DNA of 56,569 nucleotides from Planctomycetota bacterium (lineage in GTDB: Bacteria; Planctomycetota; Brocadiia; Brocadiales; Brocadiaceae), in assembly GCA_016873155.1 (NCBI GenBank), contig VGXX01000003.1:1-56569 (forward strand), given 5' to 3'. This document shows, in pieces, positions 4,370-40,595 of the stretch. How positions within the stretch are numbered: position 1 is the first letter of the stretch; every line of letters begins with the position of its first letter. The position numbers and the translations under genes were made by a program. The notes beneath the pieces were generated by a model that searched no databases, was not told the DNA's origin, and saw nothing but the letters and a program-made list of their open reading frames with translations.

Positions 4370-4402
4370 TTATTGATAAAAATAGTGTTTATTTTATGAT
4401 TT

Positions 4403-7400: not shown

Positions 7401-7852
7401 ATGTTTCTGTTATTCCTACGGATGTATTCTTTTACGGCCTTCCCATGCATGAGGAAATTTCCATTGACATTGAAGAAGGGAAAACCCTGATTCTCAAACT
7501 GGTGGCGATAAGCCCGGCAAATGAGGATGGAAACTGCACCGTATTTTTTGAACTGAACGGACAGCCGCGCGAAGTTGTTATTGCCAACCGTAAAGTTGCC
7601 GCGTCAATAACCAGGCGGCCCAAGATAGAGGAGGGAAATCTCAAACATGTCGGAGCCCCCATGCCGGGTATGGTGGTCAAAGTAAAAGTTGCAGCCGGTG
7701 ATAAGGTGGTCAAAAATGATCCGCTCCTGATTATGGAGGCGATGAAGATGGAAGCAACTATCTATGCCGAATTTGACGGAGAAATTAGCCAGGTGCTGGT
7801 GAAGCCGAGAGATAGTGTCGAGACCGGAGACCTGCTGGTTGTTTACAAGTAA
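4403..7852 (+). CDS. pyc: Pyruvate carboxylase (single-chain)
   Basis: The 1149-residue protein has the complete single-polypeptide pyruvate carboxylase order. The biotin carboxylase domain (about 5-460) carries the glycine-rich ATP-grasp loop HGGGGRGMR near residue 166. The carboxyltransferase domain (about 530-1000) begins at DTTFRDAHQSLLATRMRT near 540. The C-terminal biotinyl domain has MEAMKMEA, putting the biotinylated lysine at about 1115. It makes oxaloacetate from pyruvate, bicarbonate and ATP. In anammox bacteria this supplies oxaloacetate from pyruvate formed after acetyl-CoA fixation, so a housekeeping role is likely. It lies 33 bases after the oxoprolinase gene and 36 bases before the YdbH-like gene, so the run may be one transcript. 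A long antisense frame inside it is a coding shadow. Confidence 0.95.
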   Translation: MEIKKIKKLLVANRSEIAIRVCRAAHEIGIKTVALYSYEDRFALHRFKADESYLVGKGKDPVKAYLDIDGIIQLARDKEVDAIHPGYGFLSENANFARACQNADITFIGPRPEILTLLGNKTSARQIADQAQVPILSGNQSPVKSPEEAVTFCKKLGYPVIIKAAHGGGGRGMRVVRGESELISRLGEAQRESMTAFGSDECFIEKYIENARHIEVQILGDKHNNIVHLYERDCSLQRRHQKVVEIAPAQNLDAVVRQNICDAAVKICKSVNYDNAGTVEFLLDVTTNKYYFIEINPRIQVEHTVTEAITGIDLVKRQILISEGYPLHSPEIRIPNQESIQIKGAAVQCRITTEDPSNKFIPDYGRIQHYRSAGGMGIRLDAGTAFSGAIVTPYYDSLLVKVTAFGICFEDAVSRMDRALDEFRIRGVKTNIPFLINLINHKDILKGKCTTNFIDENHDLFRFSRRRDRASLIMHFIGDVLVNGHPLIKEIPKSICRRKAPAPFVDHKKSRPKGTRDMLREMGPGKFARYVRDEKRLLLTDTTFRDAHQSLLATRMRTIDMLNISEVYSWNHADFFSLEMWGGATFDTAMRFLTECPWERLRSMRKLAPNILFQMLLRASNGVGYTNYPDNVVKAFIKQAAESGIDVFRVFDSLNWVENMKVAMDAVLETGVLCEAAICYTGDIEDSKRTKYTLNYYVNIAKELEKLGAHILAIKDMAGLLKPYAAYELVCALKSEIGIPIHLHTHDTSGGQIATLIKAAEAGVDIVDAAMGPLSGLTSQPNLNTLVEALRFHERSTGMDFKDLGLLSDYWEVVREYYAPFESIQKASTAEVYHHEIPGGQFTNLFQQAHSMGLAHRWHEITDVYADVNQIFGDIVKVTPSSKVVGDMTLFLVTNNIKAQDIISKDRDISFPTSVVEFFEGRLGQPTGGFPKEVQYKILRGAPAFTERPGANLPPVNLEEEKEKGETRTLRTITNEELMSYLMYPAVFLQYAEHRKKYDDVSVIPTDVFFYGLPMHEEISIDIEEGKTLILKLVAISPANEDGNCTVFFELNGQPREVVIANRKVAASITRRPKIEEGNLKHVGAPMPGMVVKVKVAAGDKVVKNDPLLIMEAMKMEATIYAEFDGEISQVLVKPRDSVETGDLLVVYK

Positions 7853-7888
7853 TAAAAAGACAGCATAAAGCGGGAGAGGGCAGTAACG

Positions 7889-26452: not shown

Positions 26453-26860
26453 TTTGATCTGTAAATTTTCAATGAGTATTGATATGATTTAGTAGTTTTG
26501 AAACTGTGAAAATTCGATACTCTCAAATATAATACTGCTCTTTTTTTCTTGTCAATGGACTTTTTTCTCAAATTTTCATCTTTTGAAAAATACTGTTAAA
26601 ATGGTATACTTTTATCTTAAAAAAAGGCACTAATTTGCAATTGTATTTGATCTCTCCGTGCTTTACCTTATATTTTATTTTAAGGAATTTCAAGGTTTGT
26701 ATTATAGTGTGCCAGACAACCCCCCGTATCCCCCTTTTCTAAGGGGGACGAAAGGAAATCCCGCTAAATAAAAGGGGCGAGGGGGTTGTTTTTCACCGGT
26801 ATTTGTAGTGAATATCTCAAAAGTCGCTGCCAAAGACAGCCTAACCTATAAGGTGAAACA
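26453..26860. other. Non-coding gap with one CCCCC-type palindromic repeat
   Basis: In these 408 bases I see no gene. The left part is AT-rich. At 26717-26791 there is a copy of the palindromic repeat that begins AACCCCCC and ends GGGGGTT, the family also found inside the broken SBBP gene. This marks the right edge of the first accessory island. Confidence 0.65.
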
Positions 26861-27349
26861 GTGAATGAAAAAAATAACGCACTGAAGCAGATACTCGAAA
26901 CCGCAATCGTACAGGAAAACAAATCAAAAAAGTTTTATTTGAAAGTGCGGGAACAAATACAAAATGAGGATGCGAAAAAGCGCTTGAAGCTGATGGCAGA
27001 CGCAGAACAGGAACATGAAGAAATACTTAAATCATGGTTTGAGGATGCATACGGAGAAACTTTCGATCCGGATAAAATTATTTCAACCAGGCATCCTCTT
27101 GACATACAAAAATACGATACGAACGCGACGCTTATGGATATTGTAAAACTTATTGCAAATGCCGAAAATAAGGCATACAAGTTTTACAAAAACGCGGCGC
27201 TTGAGGCAAAAACTCCGGAAGAAAAAAGATTGTTTGAAAAGCTTGCCAGCCTTGAACAGATGCATGCCGATCAATCTTTGACCGAACTGGATATGCTTAC
27301 CAACGAGGAAATTCTTTTTTCAGATGATGATATTCCCTGGAAAGTATAA
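26861..27349 (+). CDS. Rubrerythrin/ferritin-like diiron protein
   Basis: The 162-residue protein starts at GTG 26861 (AAGGTG lies at 26851-26856). It is a predicted four-helix bundle with two repeated halves. The halves carry the metal-ligand glutamate patterns ETAIVQENKSKKFY and AEQEHEEILK, then ANAENKAYKFYK and LEQMHADQ, matching rubrerythrin-like ferritin domains (ExxxE..ExxH). It lacks a C-terminal rubredoxin domain. The likely role is peroxide or iron handling, in keeping with strict anaerobes. It is the first gene of a four-gene plus-strand run with the GH15 fusion, the sensor kinase and a response regulator. Confidence 0.7.
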   Translation: MNEKNNALKQILETAIVQENKSKKFYLKVREQIQNEDAKKRLKLMADAEQEHEEILKSWFEDAYGETFDPDKIISTRHPLDIQKYDTNATLMDIVKLIANAENKAYKFYKNAALEAKTPEEKRLFEKLASLEQMHADQSLTELDMLTNEEILFSDDDIPWKV

Positions 27350-27383
27350 AATTTCAGCAACTTAGCAGAAAAGGTTTTTACCT

Positions 27384-29714
27384 ATGCCCAGAGATATTCC
27401 TGTAGGAAACGGGTCATTATTGGTAACTTTTGATTCCGGCTATACGATTCGTGATTTCTATTTTCCTTACGTTGGAAAGGAAAACCATACAAGAGGATAC
27501 CCATGCCGGTTTGGGGTATGGACACAGGAAGGTTTTTCGTGGATGAATGCAAATGAGTGGAAGATATCCATGGAATATCTTGATGAGACGTTGGCAACGT
27601 CGGTGCATGCCCACCATGAAAGGTTGCGTCTTCAGCTTCAATGCAACGATGTAGTCGATTTTGAGAAAAACATCTATTTGCGCAAAATCATCATTAAAAA
27701 TACCTCACCCGTCAGAAGAGAGGTACGCCTTTTTTTCCATCAGGATTTAAGTGTAATGGAGAGTGAAATTGGCGATACGGTATTTTATGACGCGAAACAG
27801 AACTGTCTTATTCATTACAAGGGGTCCCGTTATTTTTTAATCAATTGCTCGGCAGGAGACGTATGGGGAGTTCGTGAATTTGCTACCGGAATAAAACGGC
27901 ATCAAGGAGCGGAAGGCACATGGCGTGACGCGGAAGACGGCATTTTGGGCGGCAATCCCATTGCCCAGGGATCGGTGGACTCTACAATCGGTGTTTATGT
28001 AAAAATTCCTCCTCTCGGAGAATCGGTTGTTTACTATTGGATCGCGGCAGGCTGTACCTATGCCGAGGCAGAGTCATTGAATAACATTCTGTTAAGTGAA
28101 AAACCTCAATCCATACTTGACCGCACGACAAGCTACTGGAAACATTGGGTCAATAAAGAAGAATTTAACTTTGGAAACATCCCTCCTGATGTAATCAAAC
28201 TCTTTAAACGAAGTTTGCTGGTGCTCAAAACCCAGATTGATAATGGCGGAGCAATCATTGCTGCAAACGACTCGGATATCAGACAATTCGCGAAAGACAC
28301 CTATAGCTACATGTGGCCGAGAGATGGCGCGCTGGTTGCCTATGCGCTCATGAGCGCCGGTTATACGACTGTTTGCAGAAAATTTTTTGACTTTTGCGCG
28401 AATGTGGTCGCCCCCTATAACTTTTGCGCAAGCGTTATGATCGAAGACGGATTTTTACTGCATAAATACAACCCGGACGGATCATTCGGCAGTTCATGGC
28501 ACCCGTGGATAAGGGGGGAGGAAATACATGTGCCTATCCAGGAGGATGAAACCGCCCTTCTTCTCTGGGCAATCGGGCAGTTCTATGATTTATACAGAAA
28601 AATAGACGTAATACGTCCCCTGTACCATTCTTTTATTGAAAAGGCGGCTGATTTTCTCGTAAGTTACCGGGATGAAGAAACGGGACTCCCCCTCCCTTCG
28701 TATGATCTGTGGGAAGAGAGGAGGGGCATCCTTTCATTTACCGCAGCCACGGTATACGGAGGTCTGATTGCCGCATCGAAACTCTCCGAAATATTCGGCT
28801 ATACGGGAAAAACGAAGACATACCGGCAGGCGGCTGAACACATTAAAAAGGCGATTGACCAATACCTCTACAGCGAAAAACATAATAGATTTTTACGGAT
28901 GATTGTCCCGAAAAGAGAGGGCGGATACGAAATAGACGCCACAATTGACGCCAGTCTTTACGGCATGTTCGCTTTTGGCGTGTATTCGCCGGATGACAGT
29001 AAAGTACGAAACACCATGGATGCGATTAAAGATGCCCTATGGGTAAAAACGGGAATAGGGGGGATTGCCCGATATGAGCGGGATTTCTATCAGCGTGTCG
29101 GAAACGATAATTCAATTCCCGGAAACCCATGGATCATATGCACTATGTGGATGGCACAATATTATATTTCAATCGCAAAATCGGTGAAAGACCTTGATCC
29201 GGCAATGTACTACCTGAAATGGGTGGTTTCACGAGCGCTTCCCTCCGGTGTTCTTGCCGAACAGATCAACCCTTTTACCGGTGAGCCGGTATCCGTTTCT
29301 CCTCTAACATGGAGCCACGCGACCGTCGTTCAAACAGTCATGGATTATCTGAAAAAACTTCAGGAACTGCATATCTGCGATCAATGCGGCAGGTCAATAT
29401 TCCGGCACGAAAGGGACGGCAGGCAGCAAATTAAAAAACATCTCTCGGGAAATCTTATGCCTCTTGAAGAACAAGAGGGGCGAAAATATCCCGACCATAT
29501 GAAATTGAAGAAAAATGGCACAACTATTTCTATTACGATAGATCAAAGACAATGTGTCGGCTGCGGAATCTGCGTGGTGAGTTCTGGTGAGGCGATCATA
29601 CTGATACATGACAAGGCAAAGCTTGTTCCGGAGAGAGCAAGCACATGGGATGTTGAAGAAGGATTTGGACAGTGCTGCCCGTTAGGGGCTATCAGCATTA
29701 CGAAAGAACTATGA
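27384..29714 (+). CDS. GH15 glucoamylase-like hydrolase fused to a [4Fe-4S] ferredoxin-type domain
   Basis: The 776-residue protein starts with a beta-sandwich N-domain (about 1-260) and continues into an alpha/alpha-barrel (about 270-650) of glycoside hydrolase family 15. Landmarks are MWPRDGALVAYALMSAGY, the candidate acid Glu at 444/445 in DLWEERRG, and the candidate base Glu626 in LAEQINPFTGEP. After about 660 comes CDQCG, a charged linker, and then a ferredoxin-like segment with CVGCGIC (Cys724, 727, 730) and CCPLGAI (Cys764/765), enough for one [4Fe-4S] cluster. The reading frame is continuous, so the fusion is real unless there is a sequencing error. It has no signal peptide, so it is probably cytoplasmic, acting on glycogen, trehalose or dextrin-like glucans. 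Its stop overlaps the next start (ATGA). Confidence 0.8.
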   Translation: MPRDIPVGNGSLLVTFDSGYTIRDFYFPYVGKENHTRGYPCRFGVWTQEGFSWMNANEWKISMEYLDETLATSVHAHHERLRLQLQCNDVVDFEKNIYLRKIIIKNTSPVRREVRLFFHQDLSVMESEIGDTVFYDAKQNCLIHYKGSRYFLINCSAGDVWGVREFATGIKRHQGAEGTWRDAEDGILGGNPIAQGSVDSTIGVYVKIPPLGESVVYYWIAAGCTYAEAESLNNILLSEKPQSILDRTTSYWKHWVNKEEFNFGNIPPDVIKLFKRSLLVLKTQIDNGGAIIAANDSDIRQFAKDTYSYMWPRDGALVAYALMSAGYTTVCRKFFDFCANVVAPYNFCASVMIEDGFLLHKYNPDGSFGSSWHPWIRGEEIHVPIQEDETALLLWAIGQFYDLYRKIDVIRPLYHSFIEKAADFLVSYRDEETGLPLPSYDLWEERRGILSFTAATVYGGLIAASKLSEIFGYTGKTKTYRQAAEHIKKAIDQYLYSEKHNRFLRMIVPKREGGYEIDATIDASLYGMFAFGVYSPDDSKVRNTMDAIKDALWVKTGIGGIARYERDFYQRVGNDNSIPGNPWIICTMWMAQYYISIAKSVKDLDPAMYYLKWVVSRALPSGVLAEQINPFTGEPVSVSPLTWSHATVVQTVMDYLKKLQELHICDQCGRSIFRHERDGRQQIKKHLSGNLMPLEEQEGRKYPDHMKLKKNGTTISITIDQRQCVGCGICVVSSGEAIILIHDKAKLVPERASTWDVEEGFGQCCPLGAISITKEL

Positions 29715-32125
29715 AGATACGACATAAACTGGTAATCATTTTAGCCGCTTCCCTGATCTCTCTGAACGGTCTTGTTGGTTTCTTTATTTACAAACGGACG
29801 CGTCAGGAATTTATAAAAGAGATACGTGAAAAAGCGCGAATGCTGGTGATAGAACTGGAAACTTCGAGAAACTATCTCGCCTCTGTACTGTATACCTCCG
29901 GGCTGGAAATCAATGAACAGACAAAGAATTTTATCCCTGCTATCTCCACGAACGCAATCAGCAAAAAATTCGCGGAAAAAACCGGGTATATTATTAAACA
30001 GACCAGTTTGCGGTATCGAAACGCGGAAAACAAACCTGATGAATTCGAAGAAAAAATACTCAAAAAAATGGAAGAAGACCCATCTATGGTGGAATATTGG
30101 GCAGACGATCTGATAGAGGGCAAAAGAGTCGAGCGCTATATTTACCCCTTATACGTGAAAAAAGAATGCCTTCTTTGTCATGGGGCAAAAGAAAATGCGC
30201 CGAAAGTTGTGCAGGATAATTATAATACGGGCTACGATTACAAACTCGGAGAAATACGAGGAGGGCTCAGCGTCATTATCCCAAAAGAAATCGCGGAACA
30301 ACGGTATGCCTCTGATTTTATATTCTTTATTATCATTGGAGCCACCAGCATAATGCTGGTGGTGGTTATTATATTTTTTACGACAAACAAATTCCTGAAA
30401 CCCGTGGAAAAATTAACCGTTGCTGCCACCACTATCAGTAAAACAGGTGATTTAACAACAAAAGTGAACATTACTACCAATGATGAAGTCGGTCAGATGG
30501 GAGAGGCTTTTAATGACATGTCAGGCAAGTTGAATGCCTCGTATGCCCTGCTGGAGCAGCGTATTGCGGAGAAAACCGAGCATTTGCAGCGGGCCGTTTC
30601 CGCGTTGAAACGCGCGAATAGGATGAAATCGGAGTTTTTAGCCAACATGTCACACGAACTCCGCACGCCTCTTAACGCGATAATCGGTTTTGCGGAAGTG
30701 CTGAAAGATAAGCTATGCGGCGATTTGAATGCGGAACAGGAAGATTTTGTTAAAGATATACACAGCAGCGGACAACATCTTCTGCAGATGATCAACGACA
30801 TATTGGATCTGTCAAAAATTGAAGCCGGCAAGATGGAATTGCAGTATGAAGTATTTCTTGTGCCCGATGCTATCGAAGATGTGTATACTATTTTAAAAGG
30901 TCTTGCCAAGAAAAAACAGATCAAATTGGAAACTCTTATAGCAGATGATGCAAAAGATATCGAAGCGGATCGTGTAAAATTCAAACAGATCCTCTATAAT
31001 CTTCTTTCTAACGCCATAAAATTTACGTCACAAGACGGCACAATTATCACAAAGGCAAGCATCACTGATGGAAAATTACAGGTTTCAGTAACCGATTCAG
31101 GCATCGGGATTAAACCTGAGGAACAGAGAAAAGTTTTTAAGGAATTTTGGCAGGCCGACAGCACATATTCGCGCAAATATGAAGGAACCGGACTGGGGCT
31201 TGCCCTCACGAAAAGAATCGTGGAAATGCATCAGGGAAAAATCTGGTTTGAAAGCACCTATGGAAAAGGAAGCACGTTTTATTTTGAACTGCCTTTGACA
31301 AAACCATGTGAATCAGACCGGGAACCTGTTCAGACAGAAAAACAGAAAATTCCGGCAATTACGGAACAACAATCAAGGACTATTCTGGTTGTGGAAGATA
31401 ATCGCATGTCGGCAGACCTTCTTTCCGTGTATCTGAAAAATGCGGGCTATTCGGTTGTCATTGCGAAAACCGGAGAAGAAGCAATAAAAAAGGCAAAGGA
31501 AATTCGTCCCTTTTTAATTACCCTGGATATTCTTCTGCCGGGAGTCGATGGATGGGATGTGCTTTCACAGCTTAAGAGCATGGAGGAAACCGCACAGATA
31601 CCTGTAATCATTGTCTCTATTATTGACAACAAGGAACTTGGTTATAGTTTGGGAGCGGCTGAATATCTGATTAAGCCCATCGACAGGAAAAGGCTTGTCG
31701 ATGCGGTAACCACTGCTATTCATTCATTACAACCCGCGGGAAAACCCATGAAGGTATTGGTAGTGGATGACGACGAAAAAGCAGTCAAATATATCAGCGC
31801 CATTCTGGAAGAAAAAGGTTTTGGAATTTTAAAGGCATACAATGGTGAATCCGGGATAGAACTGGCTATCAGTAACACGCCGGATCTCATTATTCTGGAT
31901 CTGATGATGCCGGGGATCAGCGGATTTGATGTTGTGGAGAAACTCAAAGCTCATCCGTCCGCAAAAGAGATTCCTATTATTATTTGTTCTGCAAAGGAAA
32001 TCACCCCTGAAGAAAAACGGGAATTAAACGGAAATATTCTCGTCATCGTGCAGAAAGGACACCATACGAAAGAAGATCTCCTTGCGGCAATTAAGAAGAT
32101 AGAACAGGCACATGAAAAATCGTGA
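29711..32125 (+). CDS. Hybrid sensor histidine kinase with CxxCH-containing (Tll0287/DUF3365-like) sensor and two receiver domains
   Basis: The start is ATG 29711, overlapping the upstream stop as ATGA; a longer frame exists but would lose this coupling. The 804-residue order is: membrane helix (8-27), an extracytoplasmic domain with CLLCHG (Cys153, Cys156, His157) like heme-binding Tll0287/DUF3365 sensors, a second membrane helix (about 200-222), HAMP, HisKA with MSHELRTP (His315), HATPase (GTGLGLAL), receiver 1 (Asp606 in LDILLPG) and receiver 2 (Asp730 in LDLMMPG). A c-type heme in the sensor suggests redox or gas sensing. The CheY/DivK-like regulator follows 12 bases later and is the likely partner. 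Confidence 0.85.
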   Translation: MKIRHKLVIILAASLISLNGLVGFFIYKRTRQEFIKEIREKARMLVIELETSRNYLASVLYTSGLEINEQTKNFIPAISTNAISKKFAEKTGYIIKQTSLRYRNAENKPDEFEEKILKKMEEDPSMVEYWADDLIEGKRVERYIYPLYVKKECLLCHGAKENAPKVVQDNYNTGYDYKLGEIRGGLSVIIPKEIAEQRYASDFIFFIIIGATSIMLVVVIIFFTTNKFLKPVEKLTVAATTISKTGDLTTKVNITTNDEVGQMGEAFNDMSGKLNASYALLEQRIAEKTEHLQRAVSALKRANRMKSEFLANMSHELRTPLNAIIGFAEVLKDKLCGDLNAEQEDFVKDIHSSGQHLLQMINDILDLSKIEAGKMELQYEVFLVPDAIEDVYTILKGLAKKKQIKLETLIADDAKDIEADRVKFKQILYNLLSNAIKFTSQDGTIITKASITDGKLQVSVTDSGIGIKPEEQRKVFKEFWQADSTYSRKYEGTGLGLALTKRIVEMHQGKIWFESTYGKGSTFYFELPLTKPCESDREPVQTEKQKIPAITEQQSRTILVVEDNRMSADLLSVYLKNAGYSVVIAKTGEEAIKKAKEIRPFLITLDILLPGVDGWDVLSQLKSMEETAQIPVIIVSIIDNKELGYSLGAAEYLIKPIDRKRLVDAVTTAIHSLQPAGKPMKVLVVDDDEKAVKYISAILEEKGFGILKAYNGESGIELAISNTPDLIILDLMMPGISGFDVVEKLKAHPSAKEIPIIICSAKEITPEEKRELNGNILVIVQKGHHTKEDLLAAIKKIEQAHEKS

Positions 32126-32137
32126 AGGGAATAATGT

Positions 32138-32509
32138 ATGGCAAATGAAAAAGTAATGGTAGTTGAAGATAATGAGAAAAACAGAAAATTAATGCGTGTC
32201 GTACTTAAAGCAAAAGGATATAATGTGATCGAAGCGAGTACCGGAGAAGAGGCTTTAAGTATGTTAAAAGAACAAACGCCCGATATTATTCTTATGGATA
32301 TCCAGCTTCCCGGGATTGACGGTCTTACGCTGATTCGGCAAATTAAGGCGGATGAAAGCAAAAAAGATATACCCATTATAGCAGTAACCGCGCATGCAAT
32401 GAGAGGGGATGAACAAAAGATTCTGGATACCGGTTGTAACGCATATGTAAGCAAACCCATTGATACCAGAGAATTGCCGATTACTGTGGAAAAATATTTA
32501 AAAAAGTAG
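32138..32509 (+). CDS. DivK/CheY-like single-domain response regulator
   Basis: The 123-residue protein is a stand-alone receiver with the acidic pair in VVEDNEKN, the phospho-acceptor Asp54 in LMDIQLPG, the conserved Thr/Ala in AVTAHAM and Lys in VSKPID. No output domain is present, so it relays phosphate or acts by protein contact. It is the last gene in the GH15-kinase run. Confidence 0.9.
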   Translation: MANEKVMVVEDNEKNRKLMRVVLKAKGYNVIEASTGEEALSMLKEQTPDIILMDIQLPGIDGLTLIRQIKADESKKDIPIIAVTAHAMRGDEQKILDTGCNAYVSKPIDTRELPITVEKYLKK

Positions 32510-32587
32510 TTGGAAACAAAATACCAAAACCCTAAAAAGAGATACAAAAAATTATCGATAAGGGGAAATGATTTTACATGAAATACA

Positions 32588-34234
32588 CTATTCCGCCGGA
32601 TCAACGGTAAGATACAGAGAGGTAGTGCCTCTTTTTATATGCAGAAGTAATTTCTCCCCCGTGTTTGCGATGATCAGGGCTCTTTTAAATTCAGAGACGT
32701 TGGAGATTGTGTTTCTGTTTATTTCTGTGATGATGTCTCCTTTTTTGATATCATGCTTTGCCGCAGGGCCTTCCGGCTGCACCTCCGCAACCAGTACTCC
32801 GCTATCGTGCGTTAGATTTTTATCTTCGGGTAAATTCTCTGCTATTATGCCAATATCCTTTTCCGGAGGCACTTCTTCCGGTGTTGGTGTAGAAGCGATT
32901 TTTTGCGGTTGTTCACTAAGAATAACATTCAGCGCCATTTCCTGGCTGTCCCGTAATATCTTCATGGTAACGTTTTTGCCCGCTCCTGTTTGTTCCACCA
33001 CAAAGCTCAGGTGGTTTGCGTGCCGCATTTTTACCCCCTCAAACTCAATAATGATGTCTCCGCTTTGGAGTCCGGCAGCTTCCGCGGGGGAGTTGCTTAA
33101 CGCCTCTGTTACAATGACCCCTTCAGTGGTGTCAACGCCAAAAGCCTCCGCGAGTGCAGGATCAATGTCCTGAATTGTTGCGCCCATCCATCCGGGATGA
33201 AAAGGCATTTCATTTTTCTTTTCATGTTCTTGCTCCAGTGTCTGCACCGGCGCCTGTTCCTGATGGATCGTATCATATATTTCGGTATTTTTCGGAACGA
33301 GGGGTGTCTGATAGGTTATGTTTGGTTGAAAAAACCTTTCTTTGTTTAACATAAAGGCAATTACTCCCGCCGCAATTATCATGGAAATTCCTCCAAGGAC
33401 GGCCGCTATTGTCTTGCCTTTTCCATGCTTTGCTTTTCCAACGGGTTTTTTTCTGTTGCCGAATAATTCCCGGTCGTATCTTTGCCTTCGGCCATGATCG
33501 AGCAGTATATCGATGGCCTCTTGTAAAAGCATCTTTCTTCGCAGGGCAAAATCTCTGAATTTGGGATTAGAACTCAGGCTTTCCCAAAGATACACCTTTC
33601 GTTTATATGCTTCCCGTATTTCCTGGTCTCCGGCAGTTGCTTTTATTTCCAGAACACTATAGTAGTTCGGGAGTTCCTGTCGGGAAGCGCCGGATTTCCC
33701 GGTGGCAATAATGGGCATGGAAGGAGCAGAAGCCTGGTATTGTGCTCCCTTTTTTTTCAGTTCCGAGGCAATCATATCGGAAGCGGCAGACTGGCTGAGT
33801 CCCAATGATTCTGCGTAGTTAAGAAGTATCTTTCGTCCTTCCTGCGTGAGTGTGTTGTCGGTTGTGACAATATGGATCATTTTTGCCAATTCGTCTTTTG
33901 CCTTTTTACTGCTGTCGCTTGACAATTGTTTATCGTACGCTGATTTTTTTGAAGGATTGGATAATACCTCATATGCCTCCTGCAGTTTTTCCATTGCTTC
34001 GGCAGAGGCTGGCCCCGTTTCTTTCGTTTTTGTATTGGCAGGGTTGGCGTTGTACCGTTTATTTACTTCACGCCACCAGTCATATCTTTGTTGAAATGAT
34101 TTTGTTATAGTTTGGGAGGAATGGCTTTCGCCGGATGTTAAACCTAAACGTTCATAATGGTTTTTCGCGGGGTCGAGAGCGCTTTTCCATTCATTGTTAT
34201 GAAAATATTTGTCAGGATCGAACAATGCCGCCAT
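32588..34234 (-). CDS. Membrane protein with two J-like segments lacking HPD and two PDZ domains
   Basis: The 548-residue protein has an N-terminal J-like segment (about 25-105: NHYERLGL ... LQEAYEVLSNPSKKSAYD). It lacks the HPD tripeptide needed to stimulate Hsp70; the position reads DWWREVN. A second J-like segment (about 190-260: NYYSVLEIKA ... QRYDREL) also lacks HPD. A membrane helix follows (about 275-297), then two PDZ domains (about 345-440 with GWMGATIQDI and LQSGDIIIEFEG, and about 455-545 with IKKGDIITEIN). It is the third gene of an operon with GrpE-like and short Hsp70 genes. It probably docks or regulates that Hsp70 at the membrane; the PDZ domains would face outside if the helix is type II. 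Confidence 0.7.
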   Translation of the reverse strand: MAALFDPDKYFHNNEWKSALDPAKNHYERLGLTSGESHSSQTITKSFQQRYDWWREVNKRYNANPANTKTKETGPASAEAMEKLQEAYEVLSNPSKKSAYDKQLSSDSSKKAKDELAKMIHIVTTDNTLTQEGRKILLNYAESLGLSQSAASDMIASELKKKGAQYQASAPSMPIIATGKSGASRQELPNYYSVLEIKATAGDQEIREAYKRKVYLWESLSSNPKFRDFALRRKMLLQEAIDILLDHGRRQRYDRELFGNRKKPVGKAKHGKGKTIAAVLGGISMIIAAGVIAFMLNKERFFQPNITYQTPLVPKNTEIYDTIHQEQAPVQTLEQEHEKKNEMPFHPGWMGATIQDIDPALAEAFGVDTTEGVIVTEALSNSPAEAAGLQSGDIIIEFEGVKMRHANHLSFVVEQTGAGKNVTMKILRDSQEMALNVILSEQPQKIASTPTPEEVPPEKDIGIIAENLPEDKNLTHDSGVLVAEVQPEGPAAKHDIKKGDIITEINRNTISNVSEFKRALIIANTGEKLLLHIKRGTTSLYLTVDPAE

Positions 34235-34269
34235 AGTCTGTTTTCCGGATAATCACCATGCCTGTTTAT

Positions 34270-35871
34270 TTAACTCGTTATTGTGGCTTTTTCAATATTG
34301 GCGCTTGCGGTTTTTATTTCCTGATCAGTCAGGCCGCCGGTGTGTTCTACTTTTATTACCACTTCCTTTTTCGACGGGAGATGAACACCGTGCACTTCCA
34401 GTATTCCCATATCATTATATTTATAGGCTACCTCGATGGAGCTTCCTTTTGGCGAAGGGGGGATATCGCGTATCGAACCCTTTGCGATCATAGTGCAGTC
34501 GAGGGGGTCGCATGTATCGTCTTCGCCCATGATTCCGCCTTCCATGATTCTTAGAAGGACAGAGCCCTGGTTATCGGTGAGTGTCTTAAAAATATCCTTC
34601 TTTTCAAAAGGCAGGGGAGTAAACCGTGGTATCATGAGAAAATTCCGCTCATTCCCTTCTCCGTCCAGTGCGATGATCCCCAGATTATGCGAAGCCACTT
34701 TTTGCACTTCCACGCCGGCAAGTCTTTTTACAATTTCACCGGGGATATTGCCGCCGGGAATGCTCAGTATTGCCGCATGCCAGGCAGCGCCAAGGGCTAC
34801 ACATTCATCGGGGTTTAATTCGTCGGTCGGCGTTTTTCCGCTTATTTCCGTAATCATATTTCGTATCATGGGCATTCTTGTGGAGCCGCCCACCAGCAGA
34901 ATCGTTCCGATATTCTGCCATGACATGTTTGCATCGCTCAATACTATCTCACATAATACCTTGCAGCGGTTTACGAGTGATTTCGTAATTTCTTCGAATT
35001 TTTCTCTGGTTAATTCTGCCATGAGGGTATTGCCCGCATGGACGCACATAATTTTAGCCTTTTCACGTTTCGATAGTTCTTCTTTTGCCTTAATTGCACG
35101 CAATTGCAAATCCTGATACGACGAAAGATCGTCCAGGGGGTCTGATCCGTATTTTTCCTTAAAAATCTTTGCTACATACCGGATGATTTCATCGTCCCAG
35201 TCTTTGCCTCCGAGCAAGTGATCGCCGTTCACAACGACCTCACGGATTTTCCCTTGTTTTATTTCAAGGATAACCACGTCAAAAGTTCCGCCGCCCAGGT
35301 CGAAGACAAAAACATTTTGATCTTTTTCGAGTTTGTCAAGTCCGTAAGAAAGCGCGGCGGCTACCGGTTCATCGATTACTGCCAGCACATTAAATCCTGC
35401 AATGATCCCTGCTTCCTTTGTTGCTGCCCTTTCAGGGTCGCCAAAATAGGCGGGACACGTAATTACCGCATCCGTTATTGTTGTTCCCATCCGTGCCTCA
35501 GCGTCATTTTTCAGTTTTTTCAGAACAAATGCGGAAATCTCCTGTGCGCTGTATTTCTTCCCTCCATGTTCAAAACACCAGCCCTTTGCCACAACATTTC
35601 CCTGTCCATCCTTTTTATCTTCTTTTGGCTTTCCCATTTGTCTTTTTACAAATTCAACGACCTTGTTGGGTTCCGCCACGGCATTGTGTTTTGCTATTTC
35701 TCCCACAATAATATCATTTTCGTTTTCGATAAGCACAACTGAAGGGGTGATACGGTCCTGCTCGGGACTGGTAATAATCTCGGCTTTGTTGGTATCTTCA
35801 TTAATATGTGCGATGGCAGAAAAAGTAGTGCCCAGATCGATTCCAACTACTTTTGTTTTTTCAGACGACAT
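34270..35871 (-). CDS. Short Hsp70 (DnaK-like) chaperone
   Basis: I prefer ATG 35871 over 35880 because the GGAG site directly abuts the upstream ATG and is well spaced for the second. The 533-residue protein has the actin-like ATPase (GIDLGTTFSAIA at the start, DLGGGTFDVVILE near 195, GGSTRMP near 325) and a beta substrate-binding domain. It ends about 100 residues before a normal DnaK, losing most of the helical lid and the C-terminal EEVD-type tail. Short Hsp70s of this type (HscC-like in size) are usually specialised. It lies between the GrpE-like gene (6 bases upstream) and the J/PDZ gene. Confidence 0.85.
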   Translation of the reverse strand: MSSEKTKVVGIDLGTTFSAIAHINEDTNKAEIITSPEQDRITPSVVLIENENDIIVGEIAKHNAVAEPNKVVEFVKRQMGKPKEDKKDGQGNVVAKGWCFEHGGKKYSAQEISAFVLKKLKNDAEARMGTTITDAVITCPAYFGDPERAATKEAGIIAGFNVLAVIDEPVAAALSYGLDKLEKDQNVFVFDLGGGTFDVVILEIKQGKIREVVVNGDHLLGGKDWDDEIIRYVAKIFKEKYGSDPLDDLSSYQDLQLRAIKAKEELSKREKAKIMCVHAGNTLMAELTREKFEEITKSLVNRCKVLCEIVLSDANMSWQNIGTILLVGGSTRMPMIRNMITEISGKTPTDELNPDECVALGAAWHAAILSIPGGNIPGEIVKRLAGVEVQKVASHNLGIIALDGEGNERNFLMIPRFTPLPFEKKDIFKTLTDNQGSVLLRIMEGGIMGEDDTCDPLDCTMIAKGSIRDIPPSPKGSSIEVAYKYNDMGILEVHGVHLPSKKEVVIKVEHTGGLTDQEIKTASANIEKATITS

Positions 35872-35876
35872 GGTTA

Positions 35877-36524
35877 TCATCTCCTGTATTTTTTAATTAT
35901 CACTTCCTCCGGCCTCAGTACCTTGTCATTCCAGCAAAATCCTGGTTTTACAACCTTTTCCACCTTATTGTTTTCGGCTTCGGTGGTTGTTGGCACAGTG
36001 CCTGTCGTTTTGTGAAGTTTATAGTCAAGAAAGTCCGGATGTTCGCGGTACGGTGTCACGTCTCTGCGGTACAGAATTTCCAGCAATTCTTCCTTTATCG
36101 TATGCAGATTCTGTTTCAGTATTGAAAAAGCTTCCTTTGTCATATCCTGCTTTCCATCCAGAACGGCGAGCAATTGCATGAAATTGTCATAAAGCATGAT
36201 CAGGTCAATGAAAACAGGTTTTTGCGACTGGAAGATAAAATTGTCACGATAGAGCTTCAGTTCCTCATGGAGCTTCTCAATGGTTTTTTCTTTCGTTGCA
36301 TCATAAGACAAGCGGGCTTCAAGGAGTGATTTCATTTCTTCCAGTAATGCTTTGTGAGAGGCGATCATTTCTGCAATAGATGCTTGTTCCGTGCCATTCG
36401 TTCGATGTGTGCTTTCTGTGTGGGATGTCTCCTTTCCTCCGGGATGTTTAACGTTGTCGTGTTGCGATACCGGAGGATTGTTAATTTCTTTATTTCCTTG
36501 TGTTTCTTCTTCTCGAACATTCAT
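35877..36524 (-). CDS. GrpE-like nucleotide exchange factor for the short Hsp70
   Basis: The 215-residue protein has a disordered, charged N-terminus (to about 65), a long helix (about 70-125) and a compact C-terminal part (IKEELLEILYRRDVTPY ... KTTGTVPTTTEAENNKV ... VVKPGFCWNDKVLRPEEVIIKKY). This follows GrpE order, ending with the beta-domain phrase like GFxxxxKVLRPAxV. Sequence similarity is moderate but position, size and the C-terminal signature agree. It is the first gene of the chaperone operon, with an AGAGGTG site. The 300 bases upstream are AT-rich and probably carry the promoter. Confidence 0.75.
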   Translation of the reverse strand: MNVREEETQGNKEINNPPVSQHDNVKHPGGKETSHTESTHRTNGTEQASIAEMIASHKALLEEMKSLLEARLSYDATKEKTIEKLHEELKLYRDNFIFQSQKPVFIDLIMLYDNFMQLLAVLDGKQDMTKEAFSILKQNLHTIKEELLEILYRRDVTPYREHPDFLDYKLHKTTGTVPTTTEAENNKVEKVVKPGFCWNDKVLRPEEVIIKKYRR

Positions 36525-36634
36525 TTGCCATACACCTCTTTTTATAAAGCATGTCTCACAGGAAATAGGAAGCCGGTGGAAAACATCATTAAGTATTTAT
36601 TTATAAAGATTTATAACATTTCGAAAGTAATATA

Positions 36635-36889
36635 TCAATAGTAAACAGGTTCATCTGTTGAAAAAAGATTATGATGTGCTAATTGAGAGGTTGAATTAAC
36701 CGGGATTAAGAATTTGTCCTTGAGCGGGGTTTCATGTATGACAATAAAATAATGAGGTTCTGGGTTATTAAAGCTCTTTTCTGTGAAGTAGTAGACAGAA
36801 CAGAGTTGTATTGCAGACTCGATTTGTATATCGGGCGGGATATCAATCAGGGATTTGCTCCCATTGGTTTTTAATTTCCATTTGTTCGT
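36635..36889 (-). pseudogene. Small conserved-looking ORF without a start codon, after the Panacea fragment
   Basis: On the minus strand a frame of about 84 codons overlaps the end of the Panacea fragment. Its core, SAIQLCSVYYFTEKSFNNPEPHYFIVIHETPLKDKF, has the look of a real small domain protein that I have seen beside DUF4065/Panacea genes. No ATG is in frame; the nearest ATG upstream is followed at once by TAA. A frameshift or lost start is likely. It could be the toxin partner of the Panacea antitoxin. Confidence 0.4.
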
Positions 36890-37229
36890 TTACATAATTC
36901 AACATTTCTTCTTTATCGTCCGTATTCATAACAAATAAGTTCTTACCTTCTAATGGTGCTAAATGCTTGCTTCCATGCATTGCATCTTTAAAGAAGTCTT
37001 CGTAATCCATGTTAAATACTGAACCCATACCTGACTCCAACTTCTTTTCAAACCTTTTCCATTCCGGGTATGCATGGGAAACTTCCGCAAGCTGAAATTG
37101 GCCGAGATGTCCGAAATGTTTTATTGCAAACACCAGCGCCTCAATATCAGAATCTGAGAAGACATTTATATCTATATCATGTACAGATCGAATATCATAC
37201 ATGCCTTGTTTTTCGATATATTGTTTATT
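36843..37229 (-). pseudogene. Panacea (DUF4065) antitoxin, C-terminal fragment
   Basis: About 128 codons (QYIEKQGMYDIRSVHD to the stop at 36843) are nearly the same as the C-terminal half of the Panacea protein at 39969-40595. They retain the true C-terminus, which the other copy has lost. The N-terminal half is missing: upstream in the same frame is unrelated sequence containing a small inverted-repeat element. Panacea-domain proteins are antitoxins for many different toxins. Confidence 0.65.
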
Positions 37230-37274
37230 GACAAGCAGTTTATGTTCTGATAACTTAAGCCAAAGCGGGTAAAT

Positions 37275-37342
37275 CCTATAATGTGCCTCTGGTGCTCCCT
37301 TCCATCGGTTGGCAATGAGCCAGAGGAAATAGGCATTATAGG
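37275..37342. repeat. 68-bp inverted-repeat element at a gene breakpoint
   Basis: The ends CCTATAATG / CATTATAGG are exact complements, with a second matched pair inside (CCTCTGG / CCAGAGG). It lies between the end of the DUF3800 remnant and the start of the Panacea fragment, and may have caused or followed the rearrangement. Confidence 0.6.
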
Positions 37343-37359
37343 GGCCGCTTTTTTTATTA

Positions 37360-37808
37360 TTACCGCAAATACTCTGTTTCAAACCTGACCTTGTGCTGAT
37401 AGACGTTATACCATTCTGCGTCGTTATTTTCGTACTTCCGAAAAATTCCCCAGCTAAATAAGTCAACTGCCTGTAACCCTGTGCTTTCCTGAGATGTAAG
37501 ATGCGAAATGTTTAAATCGGTATTCAAGGGGAGTAAAGCTTCAAGCTGATTCACAAGATATTGATTGAAGTCCCTCACTTCCTTTTTATTTCCAGTGTGG
37601 TATTTATCCCTTTAAGTTCCGTTATTTGTCGTGAATTTTTCTTTTTCTGATTCAATTTGTTTTTGAGAGTACGCATTACAGCCTTTGTAAACTCCTTTCG
37701 TGCCGCGTCAGAATTACAAACTAAAAGAGTAATGACAAATTTTTTAGTTGTCTTTCTCTTCCTGAAATCAAAACCAAGATCACCAGACTCGTCGAGAAAA
37801 ATTATCAC
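37360..37808 (-). pseudogene. DUF3800 gene, internally deleted and frameshifted
   Basis: The first part (37575-37808, GTG start) begins IIFLDESGDLGFDF, the typical DUF3800 opening with two acidic residues of a putative RNase H-like fold. It stops after 77 codons. The second part (37360-37578, another frame) has the typical DUF3800 end, HLTSQESTGLQAVDLFSWGIFRKYE, where Asp is the last conserved acid. The pieces overlap by 4 bases and together make about 150 residues instead of roughly 220, so the middle is deleted with a frameshift. The start overlaps the stop of the 63-residue ORF upstream (GTGA). Confidence 0.65.
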
Positions 37809-37996
37809 CTATTTTTATCCTCGACAGGAATATCTTCGGGCTGGATCCAAACAACCTTTCCGTCTTTCCATGACGCAACGGGATTGCCCGCTATTTTGTG
37901 CTTTAAGAGTGCTTCTTTTACAGCTCGTTGTAAAGCTTTGTCTATTTCACTGCCATCGTAAAAATATTCATCAATATTCTTTTTTGTTTTACTCAT
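37805..37996 (-). CDS. Small putative antitoxin partner of zeta-like kinase (copy 1)
   Basis: The 63-residue protein (MSKTKKNIDEYFYDGSEIDKA...) has a helical start, then LLKHKIAGNPVASWKDGKVVWIQPEDI. This pattern is common in small proteins encoded right after zeta-toxin-like kinases. ATG 37996 overlaps the kinase stop as ATGA. The copy at 39094-39285 is identical in protein sequence. Here its kinase is only a C-terminal fragment, so this copy is probably an orphan. Confidence 0.55.
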   Translation of the reverse strand: MSKTKKNIDEYFYDGSEIDKALQRAVKEALLKHKIAGNPVASWKDGKVVWIQPEDIPVEDKNR

Positions 37997-38282
37997 AATC
38001 TTTCTCTAATGGTATTCCACAAATCCGCATTATAAACTTTTTCTTCGGTCTTTTCTCCTGTTGCAATCAAGTCAGGGCCTGATGGATATGAATTATTGTA
38101 TAGTCTCCAAGTATCAGCCAGTGGCTTGTAAAGGCTGAAAAAATTCCTCATGCCTTTTGCATATCGCCTTCTTATCGTTTCTTCAGGTACATTATGTCCA
38201 CCAATCCGGACCCTTTCAGCTACCCGTGCTATTGCAAACTCCTCATTGGGAAGCCAGAGAAAGACAAGGTGAAAAATATAAC
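37993..38282 (-). pseudogene. Zeta-toxin-like kinase, C-terminal fragment
   Basis: About 96 codons corresponding to residues from about 98 to the end of the intact kinase at 39282-39863 (FLWLPNEEFAIARVAERVRI ...). The P-loop half is missing; the homology stops abruptly at 38282, the edge of the duplicated block. Confidence 0.75.
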
Positions 38283-38395
38283 GTGTCTTTTTAAGGTTGT
38301 CTATTCACGGAGTAATTGCAAAAAAAATATTGACATATTAACATGAGGATTGTAGCCTATGATTAGCTCATCTACCATGTGTGGAAGGAGTAACA

Positions 38396-38423
38396 AGGTC
38401 GTCTCCGCAAGGAGGCGGCCTTA
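38396..38423. terminator. Hairpin downstream of the barnase-like gene
   Basis: AAGGTCGTCTCC-GCAA-GGAGGCGGCCTT forms a strong stem with a GCAA loop and few mismatches, 6 bases after the stop of the minus-strand gene at 38429. No clear T-run follows on the minus strand, so it may act as a weak terminator or an RNA-stabilising hairpin. Confidence 0.45.
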
Positions 38424-38428
38424 GCATT

Positions 38429-38899
38429 TTAAGATATTTGATTCCTCCAGTATTCCTCAAATTCTTTCTGGAGTTTCTGCCTCCTGTGATCCTTATCTAC
38501 CATATAAGCCGTCCACAGTAAGACGTAATCTTTTCTGTCAGCCAGAATCACTAAATATTCCAAAGATTCCAGCCACAAGCATATTCTGATTTCCCGTCCT
38601 CTGATATTCTTCCAAACCTTTACACCGTTCTCGTGTGAATGCTCTATTACAGGTCTTGGCCAGCGGATACGTTCGCACCTTCGCATGTCCGGCAATCTGT
38701 TTTCCTCAATATTACCCTCAGAAATTATATGCCAAAAAGTTGCCGCTTTTCCCTGTGACTCAGGATGGCGCTTCATCCCTACTCGCCTGTCTTCAAAAGT
38801 TGGTTTGCTTTCAATGAAATCTTTTCTAAAGAAATCGTATAAGGCATTTAAATAACGATGCCAATCGCCTCCATAATTTCCGTCATCTTTTTTTCCCTG
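38429..38899 (-). pseudogene. Phage P1-related, barnase-like protein lacking its start
   Basis: The frame is open from 38899 to 38429 (157 codons) but has no ATG until Met at 38776 (MKRHPESQGKAATFW). The upstream codons (GNYGGDWHRYLNALYDFFRKDF) are clearly part of the family. The conserved core is PDMRRCERIRWPRPVIEH, VKVWKN and YVLLWTAYMV. The family is found in toxin-antitoxin loci and is thought to be a nuclease. The true N-terminus seems to be lost at the rearrangement junction near 38965. A shorter product from Met 38776 would lack the first helix. Confidence 0.55.
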
Positions 38900-38964
38900 T
38901 CAGTTCGAATTTTTATATCCAGATGTTTATGGCAGTCAGCGCAAGTTTGTTGCAATAGTCCAAC
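38848..38964 (-). pseudogene. Short C-terminal fragment with CADCHKHLD, overlapping the P1-related gene
   Basis: In another minus-strand frame about 36 codons (QQTCADCHKHLDIKIRTDR ... EIMEAIGIVI, stop at 38848) read as protein and overlap the start region of the P1-related gene by about 50 bases. This arrangement suggests the upstream partner gene of that toxin, cut at the duplication edge. CADCH fits the heme motif by chance; a metal-binding tail is as likely. The family is not recognised. Confidence 0.35.
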
Positions 38965-39097
38965 TTACAGCCTTTGTAAACTCCATTCGTGCCGCGTCAG
39001 AATTACAAACTAAAAGAGTAATGACAAATTTTTTAGTTGTCTTTCTCTTCCTGAAATCAAAACCAAGATCACCGGATTCATCGAGAAAAATTATCAC
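38965..39097 (-). pseudogene. DUF3800 N-terminal fragment (copy 2)
   Basis: The GTG at 39097 starts IIFLDESGDLGFDFRKRK, identical to copy 1 over about 43 codons, and is lost at 38965 where the P1-related toxin region begins. The start overlaps the stop of the 63-residue ORF (GTGA), the same coupling as in copy 1. Confidence 0.65.
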
Positions 39098-39285
39098 CTA
39101 TTTTTATCCTCGACAGGAATATCTTCGGGCTGGATCCAAACAACCTTTCCGTCTTTCCATGACGCAACGGGATTGCCCGCTATTTTGTGCTTTAAGAGTG
39201 CTTCTTTTACAGCTCGTTGTAAAGCTTTGTCTATTTCACTGCCATCGTAAAAATATTCATCAATATTCTTTTTTGTTTTACTCAT
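39094..39285 (-). CDS. Small putative antitoxin partner of zeta-like kinase (copy 2)
   Basis: The 63 residues are identical to the protein at 37805-37996. This copy still follows an intact kinase, with ATG and stop overlapping (ATGA), so kinase and partner are probably made together. The GNPVASWKDGKVVWIQPEDI end is the recognisable part. Confidence 0.6.
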   Translation of the reverse strand: MSKTKKNIDEYFYDGSEIDKALQRAVKEALLKHKIAGNPVASWKDGKVVWIQPEDIPVEDKNR

Positions 39286-39863
39286 AATCTTTCTCTAATG
39301 GTATTCCACAAACCCGCATTATAAACTTTTTCTTCGGTCTTTTCTCCTGTTGCAATCAATTCAGGGCCTGATGGATATGAATTATTGTACAGTCTCCAAG
39401 TATCAGCCAGTGGCTTGTAAAGGCTGAAAAAATTCCTCATGCCTTTTGCATATCGCCTTCTTATCGTTTCTTCAGGTACACTATGTCCGCCAATCCGGAC
39501 CCTTTCAGCTACCCGTGCTATTGCAAACTCCTCATTGGGAAGCCAGAGAAAGACAAGGTGAAAAATATAACCCGTTTGCTTGAGTCCTTGTATCCAGGGT
39601 GCAAAAGTACGACTCGCAAGGGTTGTCTCAAATGCAAAGTCTACCCGTTCTTTTGCAAGAAAACGTATCCGCTCCAGCATAATACGGCCCGCATGAAACG
39701 CTGCGCCTTCAGGTTGAAAGGCGGAAAGCCCCTCGGCAATTGTGTCGGCATTTACAAATTCAGTGACTCCAAGCGTGCCTTTCAGCAATGCCGGAGCAGT
39801 CGTTGATTTACCAGCCCCGTTAGGCCCAGCGATAACAATAATATGCGGTCGGTGTTCTGCCAT
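39282..39863 (-). CDS. Zeta-toxin-like P-loop kinase
   Basis: The 193-residue protein has Walker A IAGPNGAGKST (about 11-21), then NADTIAEGLSAF and FETTLASR, the order seen in zeta-toxin/UDP-N-acetylglucosamine kinase-like proteins. The stretch ERVRIGGHSVPEETIRRRY provides the LID-like arginines. Zeta toxins phosphorylate UDP-N-acetylglucosamine and block wall synthesis; many chromosomal relatives have unknown substrates. The small protein encoded right after it is the likely antitoxin. It is preceded by a palindromic repeat that separates it from the Panacea gene. Confidence 0.75.
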   Translation of the reverse strand: MAEHRPHIIVIAGPNGAGKSTTAPALLKGTLGVTEFVNADTIAEGLSAFQPEGAAFHAGRIMLERIRFLAKERVDFAFETTLASRTFAPWIQGLKQTGYIFHLVFLWLPNEEFAIARVAERVRIGGHSVPEETIRRRYAKGMRNFFSLYKPLADTWRLYNNSYPSGPELIATGEKTEEKVYNAGLWNTIRERL

Positions 39864-39911
39864 AAGATATTAAGAAGTTGTGTTGCAAGGCGCTCCCAAT
39901 AAAAGCGAGTT

Positions 39912-40005
39912 AATCCCTTACCAAAGGGGGAAAGAGGGGGTTGTGTTTTTTCTTCGAATGAGAATTATTTACAACCCCCTTTTTCCTCGTTTCCAAAGGG
40001 AGATT
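39912..40005. repeat. CCCCC-type palindromic repeat cutting the Panacea gene
   Basis: Two half-palindromes (CTTACCAAAGGGGGAAAGAGG at the left and ACAACCCCCTTTTTCCTCG, then TTTCCAAAGGGAG at the right) belong to the same repeat family as 17918-18067 and 26717-26791. Its right part forms the new 3' end of the Panacea reading frame. Confidence 0.6.
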
Positions 40006-40595
40006 TTTATGATACTACCGTCCTTAAAACTGCATGAACAAAATGAAAATTCCTTACCTTCTAATGGTGCTAAATGCTTGCTTCCAGGCATTGCATCTTT
40101 AAAGAAGTCTTCGTAATCCATGTTAAATACTGAACCCATACCTGACTTTAACTTCTTTTCAAACCTTTTCCATTCCGGGTATGCATGGGAAACTTCTGCA
40201 ATCTGAAATTGGTCGAGATGTCCGAAATGTTTTATTGCAAACTCCAGCGCCTCAATATCAGAATCTGAGAAAACATTTACATCTACATCATGTACAGACC
40301 GAATATCATACATGCCTTGTTTTTCGATATATTGTTTATTATATTCGCTCTCAATGGTATCCAGAAAAGAGGTATTTTCAGCAATATCTTTCGTTTTAGA
40401 GCCTACCGGACCATATCCCATTGCAACATATTCGTCGTTTGTTACGGGCCGACCATATTTACGCAAATGATACCTATCGGCAAAATAAATAAGCTTTATG
40501 GCCTTCATTTTATTTATCTTTCCGCCGGACTTTTTTGCAAGGTAGTTCAAAGACTGAGCGGCTTTTTTGAAATCAAAATTGAAATGGATACACAT
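39969..40595 (-). CDS. Panacea (DUF4065) antitoxin-like protein with repeat-derived C-terminus
   Basis: The 208-residue frame has the DUF4065 hallmarks: a helix with LNYLAKKSGGKINKMKAIKLIYFADRYH (the KLxYFAD motif), VTNDEYVAMGYGPV, and the C-terminal helices. Homology to the copy at 36843-37229 ends after HLAPLEGK. The last roughly 25 residues (CSFKDGSIIKISLWKRGKRGL) are encoded by the palindromic repeat, so about 35 native residues are replaced. Panacea proteins neutralise diverse toxins; the partner here is not certain but the kinase gene lies 105 bases downstream. Confidence 0.65.
   Translation of the reverse strand: MCIHFNFDFKKAAQSLNYLAKKSGGKINKMKAIKLIYFADRYHLRKYGRPVTNDEYVAMGYGPVGSKTKDIAENTSFLDTIESEYNKQYIEKQGMYDIRSVHDVDVNVFSDSDIEALEFAIKHFGHLDQFQIAEVSHAYPEWKRFEKKLKSGMGSVFNMDYEDFFKDAMPGSKHLAPLEGKEFSFCSCSFKDGSIIKISLWKRGKRGL

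Follow-up and report, generated by a model that had tools for sequence, protein, structure and literature searches.

We analysed a 56,569-nucleotide stretch of DNA from an anammox-type planctomycete (contig VGXX01000003.1 of assembly GCA_016873155.1, here G000; the whole stretch is called the window), which encodes on its minus strand a GrpE-like protein, an Hsp70 without a lid and a membrane-anchored J-like protein with two PDZ domains (J-PDZ protein). On balance we lean towards reading this trio as a dedicated machine, anchored in the membrane, that represents a separate Hsp70 class and whose usual J trigger was rebuilt on the Hsp70 side and the J side alike. To our knowledge, the His-Pro-Asp (HPD) motif is found in nearly all J proteins and, together with R167 of DnaK, is treated as the universal Hsp70 trigger. 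Judged from aligned residues, the change in the window's set appears to lie on both sides: HPD is lost in the J protein and its receptor is lost in the Hsp70. The sequences themselves show a likely operon, these two-sided losses, matching residues between the partners, selective constraint and a J fold in the second J-like segment. The three genes and their parts, in window positions, are:

35877..36524, minus strand: GrpE-like gene, 215 aa, first of the trio (Pfam GrpE, 5.1e-16)
34270..35880, minus strand: lidless Hsp70 gene, 536 aa (Pfam HSP70, 1.8e-130)
35380..35382, minus strand: A167 codon of the Hsp70, by alignment (DnaK R167, the partner of HPD D35)
34678..34716, minus strand: altered interdomain linker GVEVQKVASHNLG, by alignment, replacing DnaK VLLLDVTPLSLG
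32588..34234, minus strand: J - TerB-like - J - transmembrane helix - PDZ - PDZ gene, 548 aa (DnaJ matched twice, two PDZ)
33923..34165, minus strand: J-like segment 1 (J1), residues 24-104, the most constrained part of the J-PDZ protein
34064..34072, minus strand: R-E-V at the J1 HPD position (DnaJ 33-35), by alignment
33740..33922, minus strand: TerB-like helical segment between J1 and J2, residues 105-165 (NCBIfam DjlA; all-helical model)
33461..33673, minus strand: J-like segment 2 (J2), residues 188-258 (Pfam DnaJ over 190-254; J fold in the model)
33575..33583, minus strand: E-S-L at the J2 HPD position (DnaJ 33-35), by alignment
33353..33409, minus strand: predicted single transmembrane helix, residues 276-294 (hydropathy 2.44; predicted N-in/C-out)
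32915..33202, minus strand: PDZ 1, DegP/Do type, by profile match
32597..32914, minus strand: PDZ 2, DegP/Do type, by profile match

The GrpE-like and Hsp70 genes share an ATGA (4-base overlap) and 35 nt separate the Hsp70 gene from the J-PDZ gene, so the three likely form one operon. The original prediction had placed GrpE-like, short Hsp70 and J-like-PDZ reading frames here and called them a dedicated set; the frames are where it put them, all on the minus strand, and the set is conserved across planctomycete families, as described below.

Both J segments of the J-PDZ protein lack HPD, with REV in J1 and ESL in J2, and neither segment carries the motif in any of the five Brocadiaceae homologues; since these come from five independent genomes, a sequencing error is rejected and the predicted loss stands. 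In J1, and likewise in the R-K-Y family, changes in loop length leave the J-loop alignment uncertain by about one residue. The protein is nevertheless recognizable as a J protein, scoring 52.5 bits against PF00226 (DnaJ; cut-off 27.8) as a whole and 32.8 bits over J2 alone. An AlphaFold2 model of residues 1-266 has a mean predicted local distance difference test score (pLDDT) of 60, about 66-88 over J2 and low over J1. In Foldseek this model found PDB J domains at a probability of 1.00 (6rzy, template modelling score 0.87; the DnaJ J domain 5nro_B, 0.83); the shortness of the model and its poor parts explain the weak E-values (best 5e-3). The J fold proposed from the sequence was thus recovered by structure prediction, with fair confidence for J2 and less for J1. 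The segments are also under selection: when the window is compared with two genomes of the Kuenenia group, the ratio of nonsynonymous to synonymous divergence (dN/dS) is 0.05-0.08 for the Hsp70, 0.17-0.22 for the GrpE-like protein and 0.17-0.19 for the J-PDZ protein, in which J1 is the most constrained part (0.037/0.705 and 0.065/0.749, about 0.05-0.09). The HPD-less J protein is under purifying selection and not decaying, and on these values of 0.05-0.22 we rejected pseudogene decay.

In DnaK, R167 forms an interdomain latch with D393 and D481 (PMC7289447), and on the J side H33 contacts L391 and D35 contacts R167 and Q378 (PMC8215388). The D35 of HPD pulls R167 off D393 and D481 while H33 touches the linker at L391 (PMC7289447, PMC13012618, PMC8215388); the D35-R167 salt bridge drives the ATPase (PMC13012618), and R167 substitutions weaken the response to DnaJ (PMC7289447, PMC13012618). 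We aligned Hsp70s to an E. coli DnaK reference that was checked at each residue named here; E. coli J domains served as anchors on the J side. R167 (now D, G, S or A), Q378 and L391 are gone in all 66 Planctomycetota Hsp70s of the window's class that were examined, and K70, E171 and T199 are retained across it. The prediction that the HPD-less J segments cannot act in the usual way is supported, and it is extended by the loss of the receptor residues from the Hsp70. Hsp70s without R167 form one clade in the tree (SH-aLRT 98-99), and the first sample of 36 sequences with R167 (E. coli included) and 35 without represents the two sides of one branch. The positions counted were those conserved among the R167-bearing Hsp70s and matching the E. 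coli residue; the interface set was taken from papers before the scan for conserved and lost positions. In the first sample 9 of 108 such positions were lost (T65, Q150, R167, Q378, L391, D393, P396, Q442 and F457), four of them (R167, Q378, L391, D393) in the J/latch set (P=0.00011). With 32 loci added from other genomes (66 versus 38 sequences), 7 of 107 were lost (T65, Q150, R167, Q378, L391, P396 and Q442), and three of these (R167, Q378, L391) are HPD-contact residues (P=0.0017); the units of both tests are positions, not sequences, and adjacent positions are not fully independent. As a held-out test, later Hsp70s were collected with a linker and substrate-binding domain (SBD) query from which residue 167 is absent; every class member among them was without R167.

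Residue 167 and the J residues facing it also vary together. The sample was 46 Hsp70s with a same-strand linked J protein (Brocadiaceae represented by J2), picked not by residue 167 but by GrpE similarity first and then by a query without residue 167. R167 is paired with D or E at J position 35 in 12/12 cases (HPD, PPD, SPE, TPE, KPE), D167 with R or K at J position 33 in 15 of 16, usually as R-K-Y, and A, G or S167 with I, V or L at J position 35 in all 17, usually as Q-x-I; one further pair has Q167. J proteins with PPD or [ST]PE have lost H33 but not the acid, and R167 is retained in the Hsp70s linked to them. Hsp70 paralogues that keep R167 beside a small J protein of this PPD/SPE/TPE kind occur at loci L136, L137, L138 and L158 (6347-8107 and 5055-5351, in genome G032 of the Kuenenia group). 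This agreement is a strong pattern drawn from few evolutionary events. It would fit a more specific proposal, which we hold tentatively as something short of probable, that HPD-less J proteins drive this Hsp70 class by different chemistry, the D35-R167 salt bridge having given way to D167 and R/K33, with the charges reversed, in one branch and to a small/hydrophobic pair in the other, so that these systems would be orthogonal to DnaK in the same cell.

The Hsp70 itself is short at its C-terminus. Its match to the Pfam HSP70 profile (436 bits) runs from profile position 1 to 516 out of 599, and only 20 residues lie beyond DnaK position 507, where DnaKs from this phylum have about 129-152; the lid (SBDalpha) is therefore missing, as had been predicted. 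About 7-8 residues are also missing around the GrpE-signature loop. Catalytic K70, E171, T199 and D201 are present, as in the Hsp70 superfamily, and the DnaK residues for J binding and the latch are replaced by A167, H378, V391 and K393 in all five Brocadiaceae Hsp70s. The protein falls below the NCBIfam cut-offs for DnaK (434 bits versus 822.55, TIGR02350) and HscA (343.9 of 708.55 bits), and its linked J protein has no HscB-like HPD. No HscC model matched the window Hsp70, and HscC was judged by residues and gene linkage: the marks used for HscC were R167 and D393 and no dedicated GrpE, and the window has A167, K393 and a linked GrpE-like gene instead. Another Hsp70 of the window's class (L097, 6849-9395) has a long low-complexity tail of EYAAEG repeats instead of a lid.

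The predicted membrane tether and PDZ pair were likewise recovered, as one hydrophobic helix (276-294) followed by the two PDZ domains. Because seven K/R residues lie in the 15 before the helix and two after it, the charge rule predicts that the J segments are probably inside with the Hsp70 and the PDZ pair across the membrane. This predicted topology speaks against the earlier suggestion that the PDZ domains capture clients for the Hsp70, and we rejected direct handover of clients from PDZ to Hsp70. Only the PDZ pair (residues 345-543) resembles HtrA/DegP; the trypsin-like protease domain is absent from the protein. Between the J segments, an NCBIfam DjlA match (2.8e-8) spans residues 119-213 and Pfam TerB gave no match in the protein, so that we call the inter-J segment TerB-like by analogy with DjlA. 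The GrpE-like protein scores 59.2 bits against PF01025 (GrpE; cut-off 25.8) and is conserved in the five Brocadiaceae.

A search for the same trio in other planctomycetes, which the original prediction had called for, shows the operon of GrpE-like protein, Hsp70 and HPD-less J protein to be conserved across planctomycete families. Wide sampling covered Planctomycetota only, and many of the genomes are incomplete metagenome-assembled genomes (MAGs). In a search with the GrpE-like profile, 17 further planctomycete genomes proved to have relatives gene-linked to an Hsp70 of this class; nearly all have the GrpE-like protein with a lidless or odd-tailed Hsp70, often with an adjacent HPD-less J gene in one operon. 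The linker/SBD profile matched at an E-value of about 1e-35 or better in 58 of 392 genomes (hand count). The J-PDZ protein occurs in 6/62 genomes of the order Brocadiales, counting G000 and the cut form in G036, and a contig scan with the full protein returned two near relatives and one PDZ match. In G036 (L039, 7074-8393 and 10282-10770) it ends after PDZ1, with a PDZ fragment ~2 kb downstream, as if interrupted. Many planctomycetes outside the anammox order have the HPD-less J/Hsp70 pair with other C-terminal modules, which in the family include coiled coils, membrane helices and MshEN. Because these modules differ among family J proteins, the sequences indicate that the shared core is the HPD-less J protein with a window-type Hsp70, and that the membrane tether and PDZ domains are local additions. 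The anammoxosome role once suggested for the trio is unsupported, because the PDZ version is rare in the order and the core pair is widespread beyond it. HPD-less J proteins that combine a single membrane helix with a formylglycine-generating-enzyme-like domain are encoded elsewhere in two of the genomes from the GrpE search (L108, 8885-10621, and L109, 1567-3222; the domain was Pfam-checked in L108 only). Plasmids gave no match to the GrpE-like protein; the SBD part of the Hsp70 matched mostly DnaK, HscA and HscC there, with Duffyella HscC as the best-ranked match to the C-terminal part, and led to a Rhodococcus plasmid operon (L160, NZ_CP070617, 66682-75074) of lidless Hsp70, HPD-less J-TPR protein, GrpE and an FtsK/SpoIIIE-like protein.

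Several observations weigh against a trigger rebuilt on both partners. The R167 change in the window was known before the interface set was drawn up and prompted the test, leaving Q378 and L391 as the only blind hits; P419, which contacts the HPD proline, is kept; and many D167 members keep D393, so we dropped D393 loss as a class-wide mark. The three residue-167 states amount to two changes on the tree, which makes the 46 pairs non-independent (one independent pair), and L174, with D167, carries D at J position 33. The window's own J1 and J2 deviate from the LQ.I pattern of other members, and a structure model of the Hsp70 (two-sequence alignment) reached a pLDDT of only 32 and was discarded. 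The Rhodococcus Hsp70 keeps R167, Q378 and the linker D though its J protein is without HPD; it breaks the pairing, and we rejected a strict rule that HPD loss means R167 loss. This operon suggests one of two things: HPD was lost before the receptor, or the set found in Actinomycetota functions differently.

The Rhodococcus pair also suits the chief rival, that the J-like protein is a tether or scaffold only, a pseudo-J comparable to Pam16, and that the lidless Hsp70 gave up the latch, its slow ATPase being set by the GrpE-like protein and clients. Since R167 is part of the D393/D481 latch as well (PMC7289447), its loss would be explicable within the Hsp70; P396 and Q442 are lost too, and many class members carry inserts in the linker, from about 10 to more than 100 residues long. 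Yet clade-specific conserved residues at J positions 33-35 that fit the charge of residue 167, and strong constraint on J1, are unexpected for an idle J face, and we judge this account rather unlikely. The PDZ pair, about 42-50% identical to Do-protease-like reading frames of the family and on the far side by the charge rule, could instead have been acquired from a DegP-like protease and belong to a trans-membrane quality sensor that detects unfolded tails outside and lets the J segments switch the Hsp70 inside, making the trio mainly a signalling device; against this, no signalling partner was identified and relatives carry MshEN, a coiled coil or extra helices in place of PDZ, which leaves it improbable. 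It is more improbable still that an ordinary cellular DnaJ drives this Hsp70 with the HPD-less protein as a competitor or inhibitor. The same assembly does encode canonical HPD-type J proteins, with three further strong DnaJ matches, but the Hsp70 is without the residues that HPD needs, and R167 substitutions impair the response of DnaK to DnaJ (PMC7289447, PMC13012618).

For the rebuilt trigger, what we infer about docking, ATPase effect, topology and client role is as follows. The J-like protein would dock on its own Hsp70 at the face formed by the nucleotide-binding domain and linker, through contacts other than those of HPD with R167, Q378 and L391; it would be private to that Hsp70 and blind to DnaK, and DnaJ would be blind to this Hsp70. 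The Hsp70, with its catalytic residues kept, would hydrolyse ATP and be reset by the GrpE-like protein, while the J-like protein would keep the set anchored on the cytoplasmic side of the membrane. The far-side DegP-type PDZ pair may bind a protein tail and so set where or when the machine sits, as an address or a sensor. Having no lid, this Hsp70 probably grips clients weakly, and may serve to regulate, or help assemble, a small number of partners that are secreted or lie in the membrane.

Known systems share parts of this arrangement. DnaK-DnaJ-GrpE is likewise a three-part Hsp70/J/GrpE set with conserved ATPase residues; unlike it, the window set has no lid, no R167, Q378 or L391, a changed linker and an HPD-less J protein, and its Hsp70 lies in a separate clade. 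E. coli HscC with DjlB/DjlC is, similarly, a shorter specialised Hsp70 with dedicated J proteins, but HscC reportedly works without GrpE (PMC8215388). Unlike the window Hsp70, planctomycete Hsp70s whose linker is HscC-like (VLTDVCPFTLG, L154/L155) retain R167 and D393. In yeast, the Ssz1-Zuotin ribosome-associated complex contains an Hsp70 of similar length without a lid, bound to one J protein; Ssz1 differs in not being the ATPase partner stimulated by Zuotin, Zuotin has HPD, and the eukaryotic pair has no operon GrpE. Pam16 and other HPD-less J-like proteins have a J fold without HPD, as in the J-PDZ protein, but Pam16 regulates the HPD protein Pam18 on an ordinary mitochondrial Hsp70, whereas the window operon has no HPD partner and the Hsp70 itself is changed. 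DjlA, also membrane-anchored, has a TerB-like segment followed by a J domain; it has HPD and acts with DnaK, whereas in the window protein two J segments flank the TerB-like part, HPD is missing and PDZ domains are added.

Binning probably put a contig of the Kuenenia group, the window, into G000, or erred the other way round. This follows from the 100% identity of two parts of the window, 13.6 kb that include the trio (26591-40234) and 8 kb far from it (1000-9000), to two contigs of the MAG G031 (Kuenenia group, a different genus; VGXV01000047), from the same trio in G031's near relatives G030 (probably Kuenenia hertensis; protein 77-79% identical) and G032, and from its absence in the siblings of G000. 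A second stretch in G000 (C118) is 77% identical to the pyruvate-carboxylase-like gene at 4403-7852. Elsewhere in the window, a 607-bp repeat (37676-38282 and 38965-39571, 98.5% identical, a 63-aa open reading frame in each copy) adjoins a zeta-toxin/AAA_33-like frame (39282-39863) and a SocA/Panacea antitoxin-like frame (39969-40595), near a DUF3800-like gene (36843-37808) seemingly broken into frames; the protein encoded at 22269-24089 (606 aa) has a restriction endonuclease domain of the Mrr type close to its C-terminus.

A 2021 review lists DnaK, HscA and HscC as the only prokaryotic Hsp70 types (PMC8215388), and we found no account of this Hsp70 class in the literature searched, most subscription papers lying outside that search. 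If our reading is true, the Hsp70 trigger can be rebuilt, which would explain the rise of private chaperone circuits, and these planctomycete sets would be ready-made orthogonal Hsp70-J pairs.

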